Positions 17,839 through 34,861 of a stretch of DNA of 36,720 nucleotides are shown piece by piece (within the stretch, counting starts at the first letter, position 1; the number at the start of each line of letters is the position of its first letter). The position numbers and the translations under genes were made by a program. Where the stretch lies: assembly GCA_012840485.1 (NCBI GenBank), contig DULG01000008.1, positions 1-36,720 on the forward strand, given 5' to 3'. Origin of the DNA: Clostridia bacterium (GTDB lineage: Bacteria > Bacillota > Thermoanaerobacteria > Thermoanaerobacterales > Thermoanaerobacteraceae). The notes under the pieces were generated by a model. It saw nothing but the letters and a program-made list of their open reading frames with translations, had not been told where the DNA came from and searched no databases.

Positions 17839-17856
17839 AAACAAGGAGTGATTACC

Positions 17857-18732
17857 TTGATTGCGTTTATTGTTAATCCGGTGGCAGGCGGTGGAAGAGC
17901 CTACCGAAAAATTCCGGAAATAAGAAGAATTATGAAGAAGAGATTAATCGATTACAGAATATATATAACAAAATATGCAGGAGAGGGTAAAATCTTAGCA
18001 AGAAAGGCTGCTCTCAATGGATTTAAAGTTGTAGCGGCAGTGGGAGGAGATGGTACTGTACTGGAAGTGGTGAATGGGATAAAGGGTACGCAGGCAGCTT
18101 TAGGAATTATTCCAGTAGGCACGGGAAATGATTTTGCCAGATTTTTTCGCATACCTAAAAAAATAGAGAAAGCTATTGACGTACTTATAATAGGCAATAT
18201 CAAGGTCATAGATGCTGCAGTTATAAATGGGATATTAACTTTCGGGAACATAACGAGTACGGGTATTGCCTCTGAAACAGCTGCACTGGCTGTTCGGTTT
18301 AAGAAATTTTTGTCAGGAATATTGGTGTATTTGACCGCTCTTTTAAATGTTCTTTTTAAGTACAAGCCTTATTCGGTAAAAATAAAAGTGGACGATAAAG
18401 AGATAGACAGAGAAATAACAATTTTTGCTGCGGGAGTTTTAAGCTATTATGGCGGTGGCATAAGACTTTTGCCGGGGGCTGACCCAAATGATGGTTACCT
18501 GGATGTGATGATCGTTGGCAATATAAATAAAGTAAAAATATTCATGTTACTTCCGTTAGTTATTTTTGGAAAACACATCAACTTTAAAAAACTTGTAGAA
18601 ATTTATAAAGCAAAAAAAGTAGAAATAGAAGCAGAAAAAGAAATACCTATTACTGTGGATGGAGAAATACTGTACGGCAAAAAGTTAGAGATAAAAGTGG
18701 AGGAAAATGCAATAAAATTATGTACACTTTAA
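17857..18732 (+). CDS. Diacylglycerol/lipid kinase family protein (YegS/BmrU type)
   Basis: Lipid kinase of the DgkB/YegS/BmrU family, phosphorylating diacylglycerol or another lipid with ATP. 291 residues. The N-terminal IVNPVAGGGRA, the VGGDGTVLEVVNG motif near residue 65 and PVGTGNDFAR near 87 are the catalytic nucleotide-binding elements. DGYLDVMIVG near 210 also fits. The TTG at 17857 is chosen since AAGGAG lies eight bases before it; the in-frame GTG at 17848 overlaps that site. The true substrate is unknown. Confidence 0.9.
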   Translation: MIAFIVNPVAGGGRAYRKIPEIRRIMKKRLIDYRIYITKYAGEGKILARKAALNGFKVVAAVGGDGTVLEVVNGIKGTQAALGIIPVGTGNDFARFFRIPKKIEKAIDVLIIGNIKVIDAAVINGILTFGNITSTGIASETAALAVRFKKFLSGILVYLTALLNVLFKYKPYSVKIKVDDKEIDREITIFAAGVLSYYGGGIRLLPGADPNDGYLDVMIVGNINKVKIFMLLPLVIFGKHINFKKLVEIYKAKKVEIEAEKEIPITVDGEILYGKKLEIKVEENAIKLCTL

Positions 18733-18748
18733 ATTTAAAAGTATATTG

Positions 18749-18800
18749 AAATAAACTCTCAGGAATAATAAATTATGAAACCTGAGAGTTTATTTATTTT
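18749..18800 (+). terminator. Perfect hairpin between lipid kinase and cphB
   Basis: AAATAAACTCTCAGG (18749-18763) and CCTGAGAGTTTATTT (18781-18795) form a perfect 15-bp stem followed by ATTTTT. Only 18 bases separate it from cphB and no promoter fits there, so it may act as an attenuator controlling the cyanophycin genes. Confidence 0.75.
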
Positions 18801-18813
18801 TGGAGGCAGGTAA

Positions 18814-19635
18814 ATGGAGGGAAGATCAAGAGGAAAACTGATTATTATCGGTGGAGCTGAGGACAAGGAAGACAAGTGCGAGATACTCAAGGAGGTTGTA
18901 AAGCTATCAGGAGGTAAAGAAAGTAAAATAGTGGTGATGACGACAGCGACAGAAAAACCTGTAGAAGTAGGTAAGATGTATATCTCTATTTTTGAAAAAT
19001 TAGGTGCAAAGGATGTAAAAGTTGTAAATATAAATTCAAGGGAAGATAAAGAAGTAAACTATGCAAGAGAAGTTCTTAAATATTGCAGCTGCGTTTTTTT
19101 TACAGGGGGTGACCAGTTGAGAATAACGAGTATTTTAGGAGGAAGCGGGATAGATGAATTGTTAAAACAATTGCACAGAAAAGGAGTTTTGATTGTGGGA
19201 ACTAGTGCAGGTGCTTCTGTCATGTCCCAAACTATGATCGTGGAGGGAAATGATGAAGATTCTCCCAGGAAATGCACTATCAAAATGGCTCCTGGATTAG
19301 GTTTATTAAAAGACGTAATAATTGACCAACATTTTGCACAAAGAGGGCGCATTGGAAGGCTTCTTGCAGCGATTGCCCAAAACCCCAACAATCTTGGCAT
19401 AGGCATTGATGAAGATACAGGAATTATTGTAGATGAAAATGAATTTAGGGTGATAGGTTCAAATGCTGTGACAGTAGTAGATGGAAGAAAACTAAAACAT
19501 TCTAATGTTTCAGAATCAAGTCCTGATGAAATTTTGGTGCTTACTAATGTTATATTACATATATTGCCTTCCGGCTATGGATATGATTTTAAAAATTGGA
19601 AGCCAATGCTTAAAATCAAGGAGGATAAAGTATGA
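18814..19635 (+). CDS. cphB: Cyanophycinase
   Basis: Serine-type exopeptidase of family S51 that breaks cyanophycin (arginine-aspartate polymer) into beta-Asp-Arg dipeptides. 273 residues. The nucleophile serine is in GTSAGASVMS near residue 132, FFTGGDQLRI near 93 and the DQHFAQRGRIGRL block near 171 all match the family. No signal peptide, so it acts in the cytoplasm. It overlaps cphA by four bases (ATGA), so degradation and synthesis are coupled in one operon. Confidence 0.95.
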   Translation: MEGRSRGKLIIIGGAEDKEDKCEILKEVVKLSGGKESKIVVMTTATEKPVEVGKMYISIFEKLGAKDVKVVNINSREDKEVNYAREVLKYCSCVFFTGGDQLRITSILGGSGIDELLKQLHRKGVLIVGTSAGASVMSQTMIVEGNDEDSPRKCTIKMAPGLGLLKDVIIDQHFAQRGRIGRLLAAIAQNPNNLGIGIDEDTGIIVDENEFRVIGSNAVTVVDGRKLKHSNVSESSPDEILVLTNVILHILPSGYGYDFKNWKPMLKIKEDKV

Positions 19636-22262
19636 TAATTAGAGATATAAGGGTATATCGCGGAAGAAACATATACAGCCACAAACCTGCGATAAGAATG
19701 ATAATAGACGTAGAAGGAATGAACATTCCAACAAAAGATATACCCCAATTTAATGAAAGGTTAATAAAACTACTTCCAGGTTTATCAAAGCACACTTGTT
19801 CTTACGGATATGAAGGGGGATTTTTAAAAAGATTGGAGGAGGGGACTTATTTACCCCATGTGACAGAACATATAATTTTGGAGTTACAAAACATATTAGG
19901 ATATGATGTAAAATTTGGAAGAGCTAGAAATATAGAAGGAGATTTATACAATATAATTTTTGAATACGGATTAGAAGAGTGCGGCATAAGGGTAGGAAAG
20001 ATGGCTGTCGATATGATAAATAAATTTATACAAGGGGAACAATTTGACTTAGAAGAAAGATTGGAAAGGATACGCAACATAATTGCTGAAGTAGAACTAG
20101 GCCCTAGTACTATGGCCATAAAAAACGAAGCCTTAAAAAGGGGAATCCCAGTGACAAGAGTAGGAAATCGAAGCATTTTAAGACTGGGGTATGGGAAATA
20201 TCAAAAAATGATTGAAGGCACCATTTCAGAAAATACCAGTTGTATTGCAGTAGATATAGCATCAGATAAAATTCTCACAAAACAGATCTTAAAAGATCAG
20301 GGATTTCCTGTACCAGAGGGTGATGTTGCATACCATGAAGAAGAAGCCATTTCAATTGCAGAAGAGGTTGGATATCCTGTGGTCATAAAGCCTTACAATG
20401 GAAATCAAGGGAAAGGAGTTTATTTGAACATAACTAGTAGAGAAGAAATAAGCATAGCCTATAGAAATGCAAAAAACTATAGTGACCTTGTCATGGTAGA
20501 AAGACACATCAAAGGAAGGCATTATAGGGTATTAGTAGTGGGAGAAAAAGTAGTAGCAGTAGCTGAAAAGATCTCTGCCCATGTCATAGGAGATGGGATT
20601 CATACTATTGAGGAACTAGTGGAGATAGAAAATAAAAATCCATTGAGAGGGAAAGGCCATGAAAAACCCCTTACAAAAATAATGATAGACGCAATTTCAA
20701 AGATCACTCTTCAAAGGCAAGGATTTGATTTAGAAAGCATCCCTAAAAAAGGACAGAAAGTATTTTTAAGGGAAAGTGCAAATTTGAGTACAGGAGGAAT
20801 TGCGATAGATAGAACAGATGAAATTCATCCCTACAATATAGATGTTGCTGTAAGAGCGGCAAAAGCTATTGGCCTTGATATAGCTGGTATAGATATCACG
20901 ATGGAAGACATAAGAAAACCTCTGACAGAAGAAAATGGAGCTATAATAGAGATAAATGCATCGCCTGGAATAAGAATGCATCACTATCCCAGCAAAGGGA
21001 AACCGAGGAATGTAGCTAAAGCAATAGTTGATATGCTTTTCCCTAAAGGAAGCAAGGCTACCATACCTATCATATCTATTACAGGTACAAACGGGAAAAC
21101 TACAGTCACAAGGATGACAGCTCACATTTTAAAAACCTATGGATATACTGTAGGAATGACTTGTACTGATGGAATTTATATTGATGACAACTGTGTTTAT
21201 AAAGGAGATAACACAGGGCCTAAGAGTGCAAAAACCTGCCTAGCTGATAAAAATATAGACGCAGCAGTTTTAGAGACAGCGAGAGGGGGAATTATAAGAG
21301 AAGGTTTAGGTTATGACTTGGCAGATGTAGGAGTGATAACCAATATCTCAGAAGACCACCTTGGGATTGATGGAATAGAGGCTATAGAAGACTTGGCTTT
21401 TGTTAAGGCTTTAGTGGTGGAAGCGGTGAAAGAGGATGGTTACAGCGTTTTAAATGCCGATGACCCCATGACTCCTTATTTAGCTCAAAGGGCAAAAGGG
21501 AAAATAATATACTTTTCAATGTACGATAACAATCTTACAATAAAAAAACACATAGAAAATGGTGGAATAGCAGTATATGTAAAAGATGGTGTTATTGTCA
21601 TAGTGAATGGGCAAATAATTCCTGTTGTAAAAATAGAAGAAATTCCTGCATCTTTGTCAGGAAAAATTTTGTACAATGTAGAAAATGCTCTTGCAGCTAT
21701 CGCTGCCTCCTATGGAGCGAAGGTGCCTGTAAATATCATTGCAAAAGGAATAAAGACCTTTTACTGCGATATTACTCACAACCCCGGACGATTCAATCTG
21801 TTTAATGTAGGCAATTTCCGAGTATTAGTGGATTATGGCCACAACATAGCGGGAATAAAAAGTGTAATGGAAGCAGCCAAAAAACTGGATGCAAATAGAT
21901 TAATTGGGGTGATAGGAGTACCTGGAGATAGAAGAGATTCCAGCATACTAAAGGTAGGGGAAATTTGTGGCGAAGGATTCGATATTATATATATAAAGGA
22001 AGATTTAGATTTAAGGGGAAGAAAACCGGGAGAAGTAGCTAAATTATTAGAGCAAGGTGCTATAATGGGAGGATTGGACAGGAAAAAGATAAAAATTATT
22101 TTAAAAGAGACAGAAGCACTAAAGACTGCTATGTACAATGCTGAAGCAGGAGATTTAATAGTTGTCTTTTATGAAAAATATGAACCGATTATTAAAATGA
22201 TAGAGGAATTTATCAAAAATAAAGACCTAAAAAATACAGAAATAAAATTAGAAAGGGCTTGA
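19632..22262 (+). CDS. cphA: Cyanophycin synthetase
   Basis: CphA makes cyanophycin, a non-ribosomal poly-aspartate with arginine side chains, using ATP. 876 residues with the three expected parts: an N-terminal domain (1-160), an ATP-grasp domain (about 210-470, YPVVIKPYNGNQGKGVYL, INASPGIRMHHYPSKG) and a Mur-ligase-like domain (about 480-876) with P-loop SITGTNGKTTVTRM near 485 and NPGRFNLF. An AAGGAGG site precedes the ATG. The product would be a nitrogen reserve in a heterotrophic sporeformer. It ends two bases from the convergent yyaC. Confidence 0.96.
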   Translation: MIIRDIRVYRGRNIYSHKPAIRMIIDVEGMNIPTKDIPQFNERLIKLLPGLSKHTCSYGYEGGFLKRLEEGTYLPHVTEHIILELQNILGYDVKFGRARNIEGDLYNIIFEYGLEECGIRVGKMAVDMINKFIQGEQFDLEERLERIRNIIAEVELGPSTMAIKNEALKRGIPVTRVGNRSILRLGYGKYQKMIEGTISENTSCIAVDIASDKILTKQILKDQGFPVPEGDVAYHEEEAISIAEEVGYPVVIKPYNGNQGKGVYLNITSREEISIAYRNAKNYSDLVMVERHIKGRHYRVLVVGEKVVAVAEKISAHVIGDGIHTIEELVEIENKNPLRGKGHEKPLTKIMIDAISKITLQRQGFDLESIPKKGQKVFLRESANLSTGGIAIDRTDEIHPYNIDVAVRAAKAIGLDIAGIDITMEDIRKPLTEENGAIIEINASPGIRMHHYPSKGKPRNVAKAIVDMLFPKGSKATIPIISITGTNGKTTVTRMTAHILKTYGYTVGMTCTDGIYIDDNCVYKGDNTGPKSAKTCLADKNIDAAVLETARGGIIREGLGYDLADVGVITNISEDHLGIDGIEAIEDLAFVKALVVEAVKEDGYSVLNADDPMTPYLAQRAKGKIIYFSMYDNNLTIKKHIENGGIAVYVKDGVIVIVNGQIIPVVKIEEIPASLSGKILYNVENALAAIAASYGAKVPVNIIAKGIKTFYCDITHNPGRFNLFNVGNFRVLVDYGHNIAGIKSVMEAAKKLDANRLIGVIGVPGDRRDSSILKVGEICGEGFDIIYIKEDLDLRGRKPGEVAKLLEQGAIMGGLDRKKIKIILKETEALKTAMYNAEAGDLIVVFYEKYEPIIKMIEEFIKNKDLKNTEIKLERA

Positions 22263-22272
22263 ACTAAGCCCT
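22254..22272. terminator. Hairpin spanning both convergent stop codons
   Basis: AGGGCTT (22254-22260) and AAGCCCT (22266-22272) form a stem covering the ends of cphA and yyaC. T-runs on both sides are poor, so it may be a weak bidirectional terminator. Confidence 0.5.
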
Positions 22273-22821
22273 TACTCTATTTTGTTCATATATTTTGCTG
22301 ATTGCCTTGAATATTCCGATAGAAATTATATCCGCCATTTTCATTACAGTCCTAAGTCTTGTATTTTGAAGCACCATGTATTCCATAAAACCAGAGATAT
22401 TTACGATTCCTGTAACGAACATGTCTCCTACAGGAGGTAAGTCTTTTGAAACCCCTGCTCCCGGTTTTATAGGTCCCTTTCCAATGGATATGTGACCTAC
22501 ATGCTTTAAAGAGCCAAGGCAAGCATCAATTGCTATAGAAAAAGGATGGCCAAAATTTAAATCTATGTACTTTAAAACCTCCTGTATATTTTTAGCGTGT
22601 AGAGGTTCTTCTAAAGTGCCAAAGACATGAGCCTTTCCTTTGAGGAGAGAATTTAACTTATGTCCAATTAAAGGTCCCAAACTATCTCCTGTGGACCTAT
22701 CAGTTCCTATACATAGTAACACTATTTCTCTGCGGTAATCATACAAAGATGTCATATATCTATAGAAAGAGCTATAAAAGTCATTTATAGCACTTTTGTC
22801 TTCAATATTTATTAACTCCAT
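22264..22821 (-). CDS. yyaC: Spore protease YyaC (DUF1256)
   Basis: YyaC family protein, homologous to the germination protease fold and expressed in the forespore in Bacillus. 185 residues. CIGTDRSTGDSLGPLIGHKL near residue 37, AIDACLGS near 97 and IKPGAGVSKDLPPVGD near 119 are the family blocks. It is the only gene of the rightward arm on the minus strand, as a forespore gene would be regulated on its own. The ATG follows AAAGGAG. No forespore sigma promoter could be identified with certainty. Its presence supports a sporeforming host. Confidence 0.92.
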   Translation of the reverse strand: MELINIEDKSAINDFYSSFYRYMTSLYDYRREIVLLCIGTDRSTGDSLGPLIGHKLNSLLKGKAHVFGTLEEPLHAKNIQEVLKYIDLNFGHPFSIAIDACLGSLKHVGHISIGKGPIKPGAGVSKDLPPVGDMFVTGIVNISGFMEYMVLQNTRLRTVMKMADIISIGIFKAISKIYEQNRVRA

Positions 22822-22970
22822 ATACTTCTCCTTTCTTGAGTTGATAAGTCTTACAAATATATTTTTGTCAACTATGTAAAATTAAATACAGGTAATTTCC
22901 GGTTTTAATTATTGAAAAACCTTTCTTACTTGTGTAATATATAAAATATAAAGGAAATAAAGCGGGTGAT

Positions 22971-30245: not shown

Positions 30246-30281
30246 TATTTAGGTTACTTGTATGAAGGGATGAAATTTATT

Positions 30282-30959
30282 ATGGGCAATTTTGATTATC
30301 TTAAAAAAGTCCCTTATTTTAATGAGCTAGAAGAAAAGCCACTTGAAGAGATACACAAGATTTCAATCATAAAATTTTTTGAAAAAGGCTCTATTATTTT
30401 TATGGAGGGGGAAAGGGGAGAGGCCATATATTTTGTAAAATCCGGCAAAGTGAAAATATCAAAAACCTCTTCTGTTGGGAAAGAACACATTATTAAAATC
30501 ATGGAAGAAGGTGACATATTTGCTGAATCTGTCCTATTTGTCGGTGGAGAATACCCTGCAACGGCAGAGGCTATAGAGGACTCCGAAGTTATTATGCTTA
30601 AAAATCAAGATATAGAAGCCTTAATAATAAAAAACAGTGAAATAGCCTTAAGTATAATAAAGCTTATGGCAAAAAGATTAAAAAATGTTTCATATATAAT
30701 AGAAAACCTTGCTTTAAGAGATTCAATAGGAAGGACTGCCTCCGTGCTTTTGACTTTTGCTAAGGAAAGAGGAGTAAATGTTAAAGAGGGGATTTTGCTA
30801 AATTTAGATTTAAACAGGCAGGATCTTGCTAATATAATAGGCACATCTAGAGAAACTGTAACAAGAGTTTTAAGCCAAATGGACAAAGAAGGGATAATTA
30901 AATTAAATAGAAATAAGATAATAATAAAAAATTTAGAGAGATTAAAAGAAATGTTGTAA
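30282..30959 (+). CDS. Crp/Fnr family transcriptional regulator
   Basis: A 225-residue regulator with the cyclic-nucleotide-binding-like sensor domain (about 8-120; FEKGSIIFMEGERGEAIYFV), a dimer helix and a winged helix-turn-helix (about 150-220; LNRQDLANIIGTSRETVTRVL). The N-terminal domain has no cysteine set for an Fnr iron-sulfur cluster, so the signal is unclear. It lies 36 bases after dnaB and directly before hcp, like HcpR regulators of nitric-oxide and hydroxylamine stress, and a Crp-type palindrome lies in the hcp promoter. Start could also be upstream (30258, 30270). The link to hcp is inferred from position and site. Confidence 0.85.
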   Translation: MGNFDYLKKVPYFNELEEKPLEEIHKISIIKFFEKGSIIFMEGERGEAIYFVKSGKVKISKTSSVGKEHIIKIMEEGDIFAESVLFVGGEYPATAEAIEDSEVIMLKNQDIEALIIKNSEIALSIIKLMAKRLKNVSYIIENLALRDSIGRTASVLLTFAKERGVNVKEGILLNLDLNRQDLANIIGTSRETVTRVLSQMDKEGIIKLNRNKIIIKNLERLKEML

Positions 30960-30966
30960 AAATTTT

Positions 30967-30999
30967 GCCTCAAATGGGTATACCTTTTGAGGCTTTTTT
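30967..30999 (+). terminator. Terminator of the regulator gene
   Basis: GCCTCAAA (30967-30974) pairs with TTTGAGGC (30986-30993) around an inner GGTATACC stem, then TTTTTT. The T-run runs into the operator at 30998. Confidence 0.85.
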
Positions 31000-31015
31000 G
31001 TGATTTTTGTCACAG
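30998..31015. promoter_or_regulatory. Crp/HcpR-type operator upstream of hcp
   Basis: TTGTGA-N6-TCACAG contains the perfect Crp-type palindrome TGTGA-N6-TCACA. Candidate -10 elements lie at 31036-31041 (TATTAT) or 31043-31048 (TATATT); the first puts the operator centre at about -41.5, the classic activator position. Likely target of the adjacent Crp/Fnr protein. Confidence 0.75.
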
Positions 31016-31079
31016 ACTATTTTAAACCTTTAGTTTATTATATATATTATGAAAAAACAATAGGGAAAGGAGTATAAAA

Positions 31080-32723
31080 ATGAGTATGTTTTGTTATCAA
31101 TGTCAGGAGACATTAAGGAATAAGGGATGTACAACAGTTGGCGTATGTGGGAAAACATCAGATGTAGCCAATTTACAAGATTTATTAATTTTTACCTTGA
31201 AAGGCATATCATTTTTAAACCTAAAGGCGAGGGAAAGTGGAGTTAATAAAGATAAAACAGATCGTTTTCTTATTGAAGGGCTATTTTCTACAATAACTAA
31301 TGTCAACTTCGATAGAAACTTCTTCATCAGAAAAATTAAAGAAGCTGTTGCATTAAGAGATGAAATAAAGGCAGACCTTAACAAAGCAGGAATGAAAGTA
31401 GATGAATCTATTGAAGCAATAAATTGGGTTTATAGTACTGATGAGGATATAGAAGCGATAGCTCAAGAAGTGGGAATTTTATCTACAAAAGATGAAGATA
31501 TAAGGTCCCTAAGGGAACTTATCACATATGGAATAAAGGGTATGGCAGCTTATACGTACCACGCATATCAGCTGGGATATAAAGATGATAATATATTTAG
31601 ATTCATGGAAAAAGCTTTAGCTAAGGTTTTAGATGACAGTTTAACTGTAGATGACTATGTGGCTTTGGCAATGGAGACAGGAAAATATGGTGTAGATACT
31701 ATGGCACTTTTAGACAAAGCTAATACATCCTCCTATGGTAATCCTGAAATAACAAAAGTAAATATTGGAGTAAGGAATAATCCGGGAATACTTATAAGCG
31801 GCCATGACTTAAAAGATTTAGAACAGCTTCTTGAGCAGACTGCTGGTACAGGAGTAGATGTGTATACTCATGGAGAAATGCTTCCAGCTCATTATTATCC
31901 TGCTTTTAAGAAATATCCTCATTTTGTAGGCAATTATGGCAATGCATGGTGGCAACAGGACAAGGAATTTGAACTATTCAACGGACCAATTTTAATGACT
32001 ACAAACTGCCTTGTACCTCCAAGAGATTCTTATAAAGACAGGGTTTACACTACAGGTGTTGTAGGATTTGAAGGTGTAAAACATATTCCTGAAGGACCGG
32101 ATGGTAAGAAAGATTTCTCAGAAATAATTGAACACGCAAAAAGGTGCAAACCTCCTATAGAGATTGAAAAAGGAGAGATAATTGGCGGTTTTGCTCACAA
32201 TCAAGTTTTGCAGTTAGCGGATAAAATTGTAGATGCTGTAAAGACAGGCGCCATAAAGAGATTCTTTGTAATGGCAGGCTGCGACGGGAGAATGAAAAGT
32301 AGAAGCTATTATACTGAGTTTGCTAAAGCCCTTCCAAAAGACACAGTAATTCTAACCGCAGGATGTGCAAAATACAGGTATAACAAGTTAAACCTTGGAG
32401 ACATAAATGGCATTCCAAGAGTATTAGATGCCGGACAGTGCAACGACTCTTATTCCCTTGCTGTAATAGCAATGAAGCTTAAAGAAGTATTCGGATTAAA
32501 CGACATAAACGAACTTCCTATTTCATATAACATTGCATGGTATGAACAAAAAGCTGTAATAGTACTTCTGGCACTACTTTATCTTGGAGTAAAAAATATT
32601 CACTTAGGCCCAACACTTCCCGCTTTCCTATCACCAAATGTGACAAAAGTATTAGTTGAGAAATTTGGTATTGGTGGCATAACAAATGTAGAAGACAACC
32701 TAAAAATGTTCTTAGGTGCATAA
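31080..32723 (+). CDS. hcp: Hybrid cluster protein Hcp (hydroxylamine reductase)
   Basis: Hcp, an iron-sulfur enzyme that reduces hydroxylamine in vitro and is linked to nitric oxide stress. 547 residues. The N-terminal [19 protein letters not shown] gives CX2CX8CX5C for the cubane cluster. Ligands of the hybrid cluster are visible in [34 protein letters not shown] and [16 protein letters not shown] precedes the ATG. It is preceded by a Crp-type operator and followed by a terminator. Confidence 0.96.
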
Positions 32724-33474: not shown

Positions 33475-34104
33475 ATGTTGTTGGAAGTGCGAAACTTATC
33501 AAAAGTGTATAAGAAAGGTAGCCGTCAGGTTAAGGCAAATGACAATATTACCTTCTCTGTTGACCAAGGCGACGTACTGGGAATTTTGGGGCCAAACAGA
33601 GCTGGCAAGACCACTTTGATAAAACAGATTGCAACTTTGCTAATCCCTGACCAAGGGGACATCCTGTACCAGGGAGTATCGCTCGTAAGAAGGCCTGAGA
33701 TAATAAGAGGACGATTTTCTTTTCTCTGGGAAGGCACGCAAAATGTATATCATTACTTAACCGGAGAAGCCAACATTCTCTACTTTGCGTACCTTAATCA
33801 GGTTCCCTCTTCTTTAGAAGGTAAAACTGAGGACCTTAAAAACTTGAGCAAAGAAGAGGAGTATATTTTATATCTGCGAAATTCTGCAAAAGCAAGGGAA
33901 AAGTTGCGTAAATACGATCTTCAATTTGAGATTTTATCGGATGTTACTTTAAAAACAACCTTACGGTTGGGTCAAAAGGAACTGTTTTATTCGGTTTTTT
34001 CCGACCCTGATTTTGAGGTGTTAAACTTGGAGAAAAAAAGTCCGGATTTTGAGGCGATTTTCAGGAGGTTATATGGTGAGTATAGTGAAGGCAATCAAAG
34101 CTGA
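33475..34104 (+). pseudogene. ABC transporter ATPase lacking signature and Walker B motifs
   Basis: A 209-residue frame, much shorter than the usual 280-310. The N-terminal part is a normal NatA-like ATPase with Walker A GPNRAGKTTL (an arginine where glycine is usual). After YFAYLNQVPSS near residue 118 the expected LSGGQ signature, Walker B aspartate/glutamate and H-loop are all absent; a charged stretch (KTEDLKNLSKEEEYILYLR) and an ATPase-like C-terminal tail follow. I infer an internal deletion that kept the frame open. Overlaps the permease gene by 32 bases. Unlikely to hydrolyse ATP. Confidence 0.8.
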
Positions 34105-34861
34105 GTTTTTTAAGTTTTACTTTGATCTAAAGCGATACTTATTCAACTACATTGTTGGACTTATTTCAACCGCTATTTTTTTGAGTGGGCTCTACTGGGC
34201 AGTGAATGTCCTGTTTACGCAGAGTGGCCAGGCAGTAGCCTTTATTGGATTGCTGCTGTGGCTTTTTGCCCCATCTGCGTTATCTGATGCCACAAGTCAT
34301 CTTGCAGAGGAACGATACCTGGGAACGTTGGAACGCATATCTGTAACCAAGACTCCATTTATTCACATTCTGATTGCTCGCAGTATCGTGCATTGCCTGT
34401 TTACTCTGATTCCAACTGTTGTGGTTGGTGGCATTCTCTATATGGTGTTTAAGCCTGACCTAAGCTATATGTTCTCAGCATGGAAGGTATCTGCGGTGGC
34501 GGTAGTTATCGGTATGCTAATAATCCTTACGCTTTATGCCTTCGGATTTTTCATAGCATCTTTAGGTATGATTTTTAAACGGGTCGGAGCAATAACATCC
34601 ATTCTGGAATATCTTATTTTATTCTTTTCAGGAATAGTCATACCCTGGAGTACCATGCCAGCTTCACTCCGAGCTTTTTCTAATATATTGCCCATGATCT
34701 GGGGAATAAAAGCACTTGACAGCCTAATTAACGGCGGTGGTTTTCTCGGGAGTCTTGTAGGTCTAGTAATCTATACAGCATTGATTACCATAATTTCTAT
34801 CGTAACCTTCCGGTATGCCATGATAGTTGTTAAGAAAAAAGGAGAGTACGCTTTCTATTAA
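34073..34861 (+). CDS. ABC-2 type transporter permease
   Basis: A 262-residue membrane protein with six hydrophobic segments and the ABC-2 pattern (SALSDATSHLAEERYLGTLERISVTKTPFI, then LFFSGIVIPWSTMPASLRAFSNILP). AGGAGG precedes the ATG. It looks intact, but its ATPase partner is damaged, so the transporter is probably inactive unless another ATPase serves it. Base composition is richer in G+C than the origin genes. Together with the SPASM remnant it suggests a former modified-peptide export cluster. Confidence 0.85.
   Translation: MVSIVKAIKAEFFKFYFDLKRYLFNYIVGLISTAIFLSGLYWAVNVLFTQSGQAVAFIGLLLWLFAPSALSDATSHLAEERYLGTLERISVTKTPFIHILIARSIVHCLFTLIPTVVVGGILYMVFKPDLSYMFSAWKVSAVAVVIGMLIILTLYAFGFFIASLGMIFKRVGAITSILEYLILFFSGIVIPWSTMPASLRAFSNILPMIWGIKALDSLINGGGFLGSLVGLVIYTALITIISIVTFRYAMIVVKKKGEYAFY

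Follow-up and report, generated by a model that had tools for sequence, protein, structure and literature searches.

Results

Gene content and genomic setting of the cphBA locus

The locus lies in a 36,720-nucleotide window, the whole stretch of DNA analysed here, which corresponds to one contig (C34) of a 2.65-Mb genome. Its central features are two genes, cphB and cphA, that encode a cyanophycinase and a cyanophycin synthetase, respectively (Table 1). As judged from sequence, both genes are intact and their products are members of the CphB and CphA1 families. CphB scores 353.5 bits against TIGR02069 (curated cut-off of 126.6) and retains its Ser, His, and Glu motifs (GTSAGA, DQHF, and GIDEDT). 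CphA scores 1265 bits against TIGR02068 (curated cut-off of 850), and both its ATP-grasp domain (KPYNGNQGKG, residues 253–262) and its Mur-ligase domain (P-loop GTNGKTT, residues 485–491) are intact and recognized as Pfam domains. CphA2 enzymes lack residues of one of these two domains. An N-terminal HxxEH site, which we take from the structural literature to be the primer-making site, is present as HVTEH (residues 76–80) and aligns with HIVEH of PDB entry 7lg5; in 7txv, the Glu of this site is replaced. As the initial annotation had described, cphB and cphA overlap by four bases (ATGA, 19632–19635), and cphB adjoins cphA in 76 of 78 loci. Elsewhere in the same genome are a gene for the isoaspartyl dipeptidase IadA, with a score over its cut-off, and two arginine deiminase genes. 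The second arginine deiminase match (G000:C53:15731-16927) contains an in-frame TAG.

The highest-identity named relatives of this cphB are those of Thermoanaerobacter (85–88%) and Caldanaerobacter (77%), and the genome, that of a heat-loving bacterium, is one of the Thermoanaerobacter/Caldanaerobacter group. The presence of spoIVA and of four genes for small acid-soluble spore proteins (SASPs) identifies it as the genome of a spore-forming lineage. Within the window, dnaA, dnaN, and recF occupy the minus strand at 1.8–5.8 kb, and the genes from rnpA to parB and onward are on the plus strand. This placement marks the window as the origin region, with a distance of about 14–16 kb between dnaA and cphBA, and thereby confirms the origin-proximal position first assigned to the gene pair. 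The adjacent spore gene yyaC was also correctly recognized: it converges on cphA, and the two stop codons are 1 bp apart. Because this adjacency is kept only within the organism's own order, and 50–220 kb separate the genes in the other genomes checked, it is by itself weak evidence for a functional link. A stretch upstream of yyaC, kept in the closest relatives, resembles a forespore promoter, a likeness that is suggestive only. Further along the window, a gene for a Crp/FNR-like regulator is followed by one for a hybrid-cluster protein (30258–32723), and an ABC transporter pair has a shortened, probably broken, ATPase gene (33475–34861).

Table 1 Features of the cphBA locus and its surroundings (window positions).
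Feature	Position	Strand	Evidence or remark
dnaA	4431–5786	−	
dgk, YegS/BmrU-type lipid kinase, last gene of upstream operon	17848–18732	+	TIGR00147, E = 5.5e-56
−35 element GTATA of predicted forespore promoter	18741–18745	+	GTATATT identical in all 15 aligned genomes of the family
Hairpin 5′ arm, AAATAAACTCTCAGG	18749–18763	+	15 perfect pairs; compensatory changes at 5 pairs
Predicted −10 element, AGGAATAATA	18761–18770	+	End of 5′ arm and start of loop, mostly loop; 1 mismatch to each model
Hairpin loop, 17 nt	18764–18780	+	
Predicted transcription start, in hairpin loop	about 18776–18779	+	Inferred from spacing to −10 element
Hairpin 3′ arm, CCTGAGAGTTTATTT (18781–18795), and T-rich tail ATTTTT (to 18801)	18781–18801	+	Read as intrinsic terminator
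Ribosome binding site of cphB, GGAGG	18802–18806	+	Sequence
cphB, cyanophycinase (S51)	18814–19635	+	TIGR02069, E = 6e-106; PDB 7uqv, E = 1.4e-91
cphA, cyanophycin synthetase, CphA1 kind	19632–22262	+	TIGR02068, E = 0, 1265 bits; 7lg5 full-length, E = 1.5e-238
Terminator-like bidirectional hairpin common to cphA and yyaC	22253–22273	.	Sequence
yyaC, spore protease family, convergent with cphA	22264–22821	−	TIGR02841, E = 3e-67
Weak forespore-like promoter of yyaC (suggestive only), GTATT-N15-GACAAAAAT	22861–22889	−	2 mismatches to sigma-F model

A conserved hairpin precedes cphB

The perfect hairpin that had been noted ahead of cphBA is well beyond chance expectation. In 2000 shuffles of the intergenic stretch, no more than 12 pairs were reached (mean of 5.7) compared with the 15 observed, and the folding z-scores relative to shuffles are −3.8 and −4.3. 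The element is found in all 20 family genomes that carry cphA, at a variable distance from cphB; in two genomes of a sister family of the same order, both the hairpin and the promoter motif described below are absent. Between genera, the arms differ and their pairing is kept: 95.7% of the cells in the family alignment are paired, 29 cells are changed on both sides compared with 12.1 in shuffles, and the covariation score is 0.42 compared with 0.11 or less for controls with slid partners. Given this compensation, the stable stem, and the T-run, the hairpin is better read as an intrinsic terminator with a predicted promoter inside it. It departs from the terminator type in two respects, as the 17-nt loop is long and the T-run is interrupted. 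Terminator-like hairpins also precede cphB in 18 of 76 genomes from 36 other families (0.6 expected). This excess suggests that these genes generally need to be insulated from transcription arriving from upstream and that the overlap with a promoter is the compact form of this arrangement in the organism's own family.

A predicted forespore promoter straddles the hairpin

A promoter of the sigma-F/sigma-G type is predicted to straddle the hairpin, with the −35 element just before the 5′ arm and the −10 element mostly in the loop. The −10 element can be read as AGGAATAAT with the sigma-F model or as AATAATA with the sigma-G model, and the site as a whole is GTATA-N15-AGGAATAAT or GTATA-N18-AATAATA, beginning at 18741. 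It is the only site on either strand of the window that passes both models. We take GTATA-N18-[CA]ATA[AC]TA to be the sigma-G form and GTATA-N15-AGGAATAAT, which can be read at the same place throughout the organism's own genus, to be the sigma-F form; both strings follow the Bacillus subtilis literature, and they were fixed after some of the sequences analysed here had been seen. In every family genome, the spacing from GTATATT to the 5′ arm is constant and the loop opens with [CA]ATA[AC]TA, and the predicted site is kept in the family with 0–1 mismatch to the model.

In Clostridioides difficile, according to PMC3789822, the elements for the two sigma factors are very similar: sigma-F sites have a conserved G upstream of the −10 element, sigma-G sites have a conserved A downstream of it, and the spoVT promoter has both features. 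The site in the window likewise carries both the upstream G and the downstream A. It scores 17.7 bits with a matrix trained on SASP promoters, for which the training mean is 12.9 bits, and 16.0 bits with a matrix learned from cphB regions alone, from whose training set the site was absent.

Other sigma factors were considered for the same region. The spoIVA promoters of the family, which represent the sigma-E type, read CATATAT-N14-CATATAAA, whereas at the cphB site GTATATT and the −10 element are separated by 16 nt, and no match to the sigma-E model was found upstream of cphB. A sigma-K promoter was rejected as there is no AC at the right distance, and a sigma-A promoter as only 1 of the 76 cphB regions from other families has a site with two or fewer mismatches.

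The promoter motif recurs upstream of cphB in other families

With at most one mismatch allowed, the sigma-F model matches 27 of these 76 upstream regions, compared with 1.0 expected from shuffles and with 2 matches each in the reversed and the reverse-complemented sequences. When one genome per family is taken, the mean is 12.7 matches against 0.55 expected, and the shuffles never gave more than 3. The matches concentrate 51–75 nt ahead of the start codon of cphB. In about half of the families, no site upstream of cphB has one mismatch or fewer. As a positive control, the sigma-G model was applied to SASP genes and matched 36 of 69 regions (3.0 expected); dnaA regions gave 0–1 of 18. In the spoIVA control, the sigma-G model had no match and the sigma-F model matched 5 of 38 regions (1.0 expected), so that the simple sigma-F pattern is not fully specific.

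Because some sequences had been seen before the models were fixed, a hold-out set and a matrix trained on SASP regions only were used, which answer this objection in part. Among 22 Bacillota loci collected afterwards, with the models fixed, 14 have a match (0.84 expected), Tumebacillus among them; four loci from Sorangium and Pseudobdellovibrio had no match. The SASP matrix was derived from SASP regions of other clostridia alone, leaving out the ribosome binding site and using no prior consensus, and takes the form AGtATA-N14/15-ggnnATAcTA. At a 2% threshold, it recognizes 21 of the 76 cphB regions and 0 of the 38 spoIVA regions. A motif found de novo in the cphB regions alone, tGTATA-N15-GGnAAaAATA, has a log-likelihood of 149.7 compared with 4.7 for shuffled input. 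The cphB sites of other families lean to the sigma-F form and the SASP sites to the sigma-G form. At the level of sequence, the motif is above chance and specific, in agreement with membership of cphB in the forespore regulon.

cphA is almost restricted to genomes with spore genes

Of 398 genomes sampled from the phylum, 115 have cphA; among these, 114 have yyaC and 114 have spoIVA. The co-occurrence of cphA and yyaC has a Fisher probability of 5e-16, a value that ignores phylogeny. Only 1 of the 98 genomes without yyaC has a cphA match, and cphA is thus almost restricted to genomes with spore genes. This match is a fragment at a contig end (genome G409) and is the only one that lacks yyaC or spoIVA; contamination or transfer is possible. 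The arginine deiminase gene arcA, used as a control, is not restricted in this way (33 of 51 with yyaC). In the genomes of one genus (g7 of family f4), spoIVA was found, and yyaC and cphA were not.

Among 36 genomes that are complete or almost so, the distance between cphA and dnaA is within a tenth of the genome in 15 of 18 families. In one of the exceptions, family f121 (G330, G357, and G315), cphA is 3.7–6.2 kb from SASP genes. The initial annotation had pointed to high gene dosage near the origin; this proximity is at least equally consistent with the origin-proximal chromosome being present early in the forespore.

Discussion

Computation revealed intact cphB and cphA genes with their motifs, a conserved promoter motif, a conserved stem, and a distribution confined almost wholly to spore-gene genomes. 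We infer from these features a mechanism that extends to the start site, termination, compartment, polymer, and physiological role. With a probability of roughly 70%, cphBA encodes a complete cyanophycin cycle that is transcribed mainly in the forespore, the hairpin is a terminator of upstream read-through with the −10 element of the cphBA promoter at and in its loop, and the polymer is likely deposited in the spore. During growth, transcription of the operon ending in dgk would continue through 18749–18801, where the whole hairpin would form and halt it ahead of cphB. In the forespore, RNA polymerase carrying sigma-F or sigma-G would start in the loop, and the transcript, beginning at about 18777, would be without the 5′ arm. 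In folding calculations, RNA from 18777 onward does not form the stem, and such a transcript would therefore run on into cphBA. CphA is predicted to polymerize Asp and Arg, and CphB would cut the polymer to beta-Asp-Arg, whose breakdown IadA could complete. Polymer made in the forespore would likely be drawn on during spore assembly or upon germination. The original suggestion was of a nitrogen and carbon reserve, possibly for sporulation or germination; its sporulation part gains support from the forespore-type promoter, the restriction to spore-gene genomes, and the published phenotype in Clostridium perfringens, and the reserve role is putative.

Three other readings of the hairpin were weighed. 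The initial annotation had raised attenuation, in which cphBA's own mRNA would start upstream and the nitrogen or arginine supply would decide between termination and read-through. This would suit a hairpin of terminator-like form, the tail of which ends 12 nt ahead of the start codon of cphB, and a weak sigma-A-like site is present (TTGAAA-N17-TAAATT, 18746–18774). That site, however, would itself place the start of transcription within the loop or beyond it, and for the start upstream of the hairpin that attenuation needs, no support was found; the region has no more promoter-like matches than its shuffles (34 compared with 32.6). Little room is left for a leader peptide or antiterminator, neither of which was seen, and an Rfam search of the cphB leader returned no known leader RNA family at the gathering score. 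With the start predicted in the loop, the cphBA mRNA would lack the 5′ arm, and attenuation is very unlikely. The position of the hairpin directly 3′ of the dgk stop codon would also be explained if it terminated the dgk operon and were unrelated to cphBA, the promoter overlap being due to chance. This is doubtful, as the hairpin–promoter element is retained in genomes in which dgk has decayed (L014 and L015) or is missing (L025), and the spacing between GTATA and the arms is fixed in all 20 family genomes. A DNA operator, its symmetry arising from recognition by a repressor and not from RNA pairing, would account for a dyad that spans the promoter and for arms and a loop that are nearly invariant within the genus, beyond the need of a terminator. 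Between genera, however, changes in one arm are compensated in the other (CTCTCAGG to CTTCAG/CCTTCAGG), a pattern that is tolerated in a stem but usually not in an operator, and a T-run follows the 3′ arm; we consider an operator unlikely.

A further alternative concerns the purpose of the polymer. In other bacteria, cyanophycin is a nitrogen reserve, and cphBA could similarly provide a vegetative store of nitrogen and carbon, expressed from a sigma-A promoter and aided by origin gene dosage, with an incidental spore link. The arginine deiminase genes of this genome are consistent with such a store, as are the granules reported in growing cells of C. ljungdahlii, in which cphB is transcribed outside sporulation and extraction failed (PMC13241827). 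These vegetative granules and transcripts call for caution against assuming exclusive forespore expression everywhere. Against a vegetative store at this locus, a SASP-like promoter is found where a strong sigma-A site would be, and cphA is nearly confined to spore-gene genomes whereas arcA is not; we regard it as improbable.

The forespore reading can be extended to a wider proposal, for which the odds seem to us about even: that in much of the endospore-forming Clostridia and in Tumebacillus, cyanophycin is a spore reserve that the forespore makes, its genes being activated along with those of the SASP type; that these genes lie at origin-proximal loci, which are the first to enter the forespore; and that in Thermoanaerobacterales they are shut off during growth by a terminator with the promoter in its loop. 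If this is true, cyanophycin would be a provision packed for spores and not a general nitrogen store, and a non-ribosomal polymer would join the amino-acid stores of spores. Synthesis in small amounts, in one compartment, and late would also explain why extraction of the polymer from whole cultures has proved difficult. The predicted forespore promoter, which is found in many families and matched by the SASP matrix, makes the purpose of cyanophycin in heterotrophic clostridia experimentally tractable. A promoter in a terminator loop would, in addition, be a compact means of separating two neighbouring transcription programmes.

Comparison with known systems

SASPs are stores of amino acids in the spore. 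Their genes belong to the forespore regulon and share the promoter type of cphB, which is recognized by the SASP-trained matrix. SASPs and cyanophycin are in concept both amino-acid stores; the former are ribosomal proteins and the latter is a non-ribosomal Asp-Arg polymer. With the cyanobacterial CphA1 and CphB (PDB 7lg5, 7wac, and 3en0), the window proteins share full-length homology and all catalytic motifs; the differences lie in the control region and in the inferred purpose, which would be the spore and not nitrogen storage in growing cells.

The cphBA genes of C. perfringens are the same gene pair with the same spore link. Liu et al. (2016, J Bacteriol 198:1773) are said to have found fewer and smaller spores in a C. 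perfringens cphA mutant and, reportedly, cyanophycinase in the membranes of germinated spores. A possible role of this cphA in spore assembly is mentioned where PMC5532821 cites the 2016 study, and PMC13241827 also cites it. In the searchable literature, no paper was found that links cyanophycin synthetase with the forespore, and no forespore promoter, phylum-wide restriction, or promoter-in-terminator arrangement was found reported for clostridial cphBA. The spoVT promoter of C. difficile combines sigma-F and sigma-G features as the window site does; unlike the latter, it has no terminator hairpin around it in the portion of PMC3789822 that describes it. The cphBA gene pair as a kind and its clostridial spore link, from C. 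perfringens, are thus known already, and what is new is the predicted forespore promoter of cphBA and its predicted place inside a terminator.
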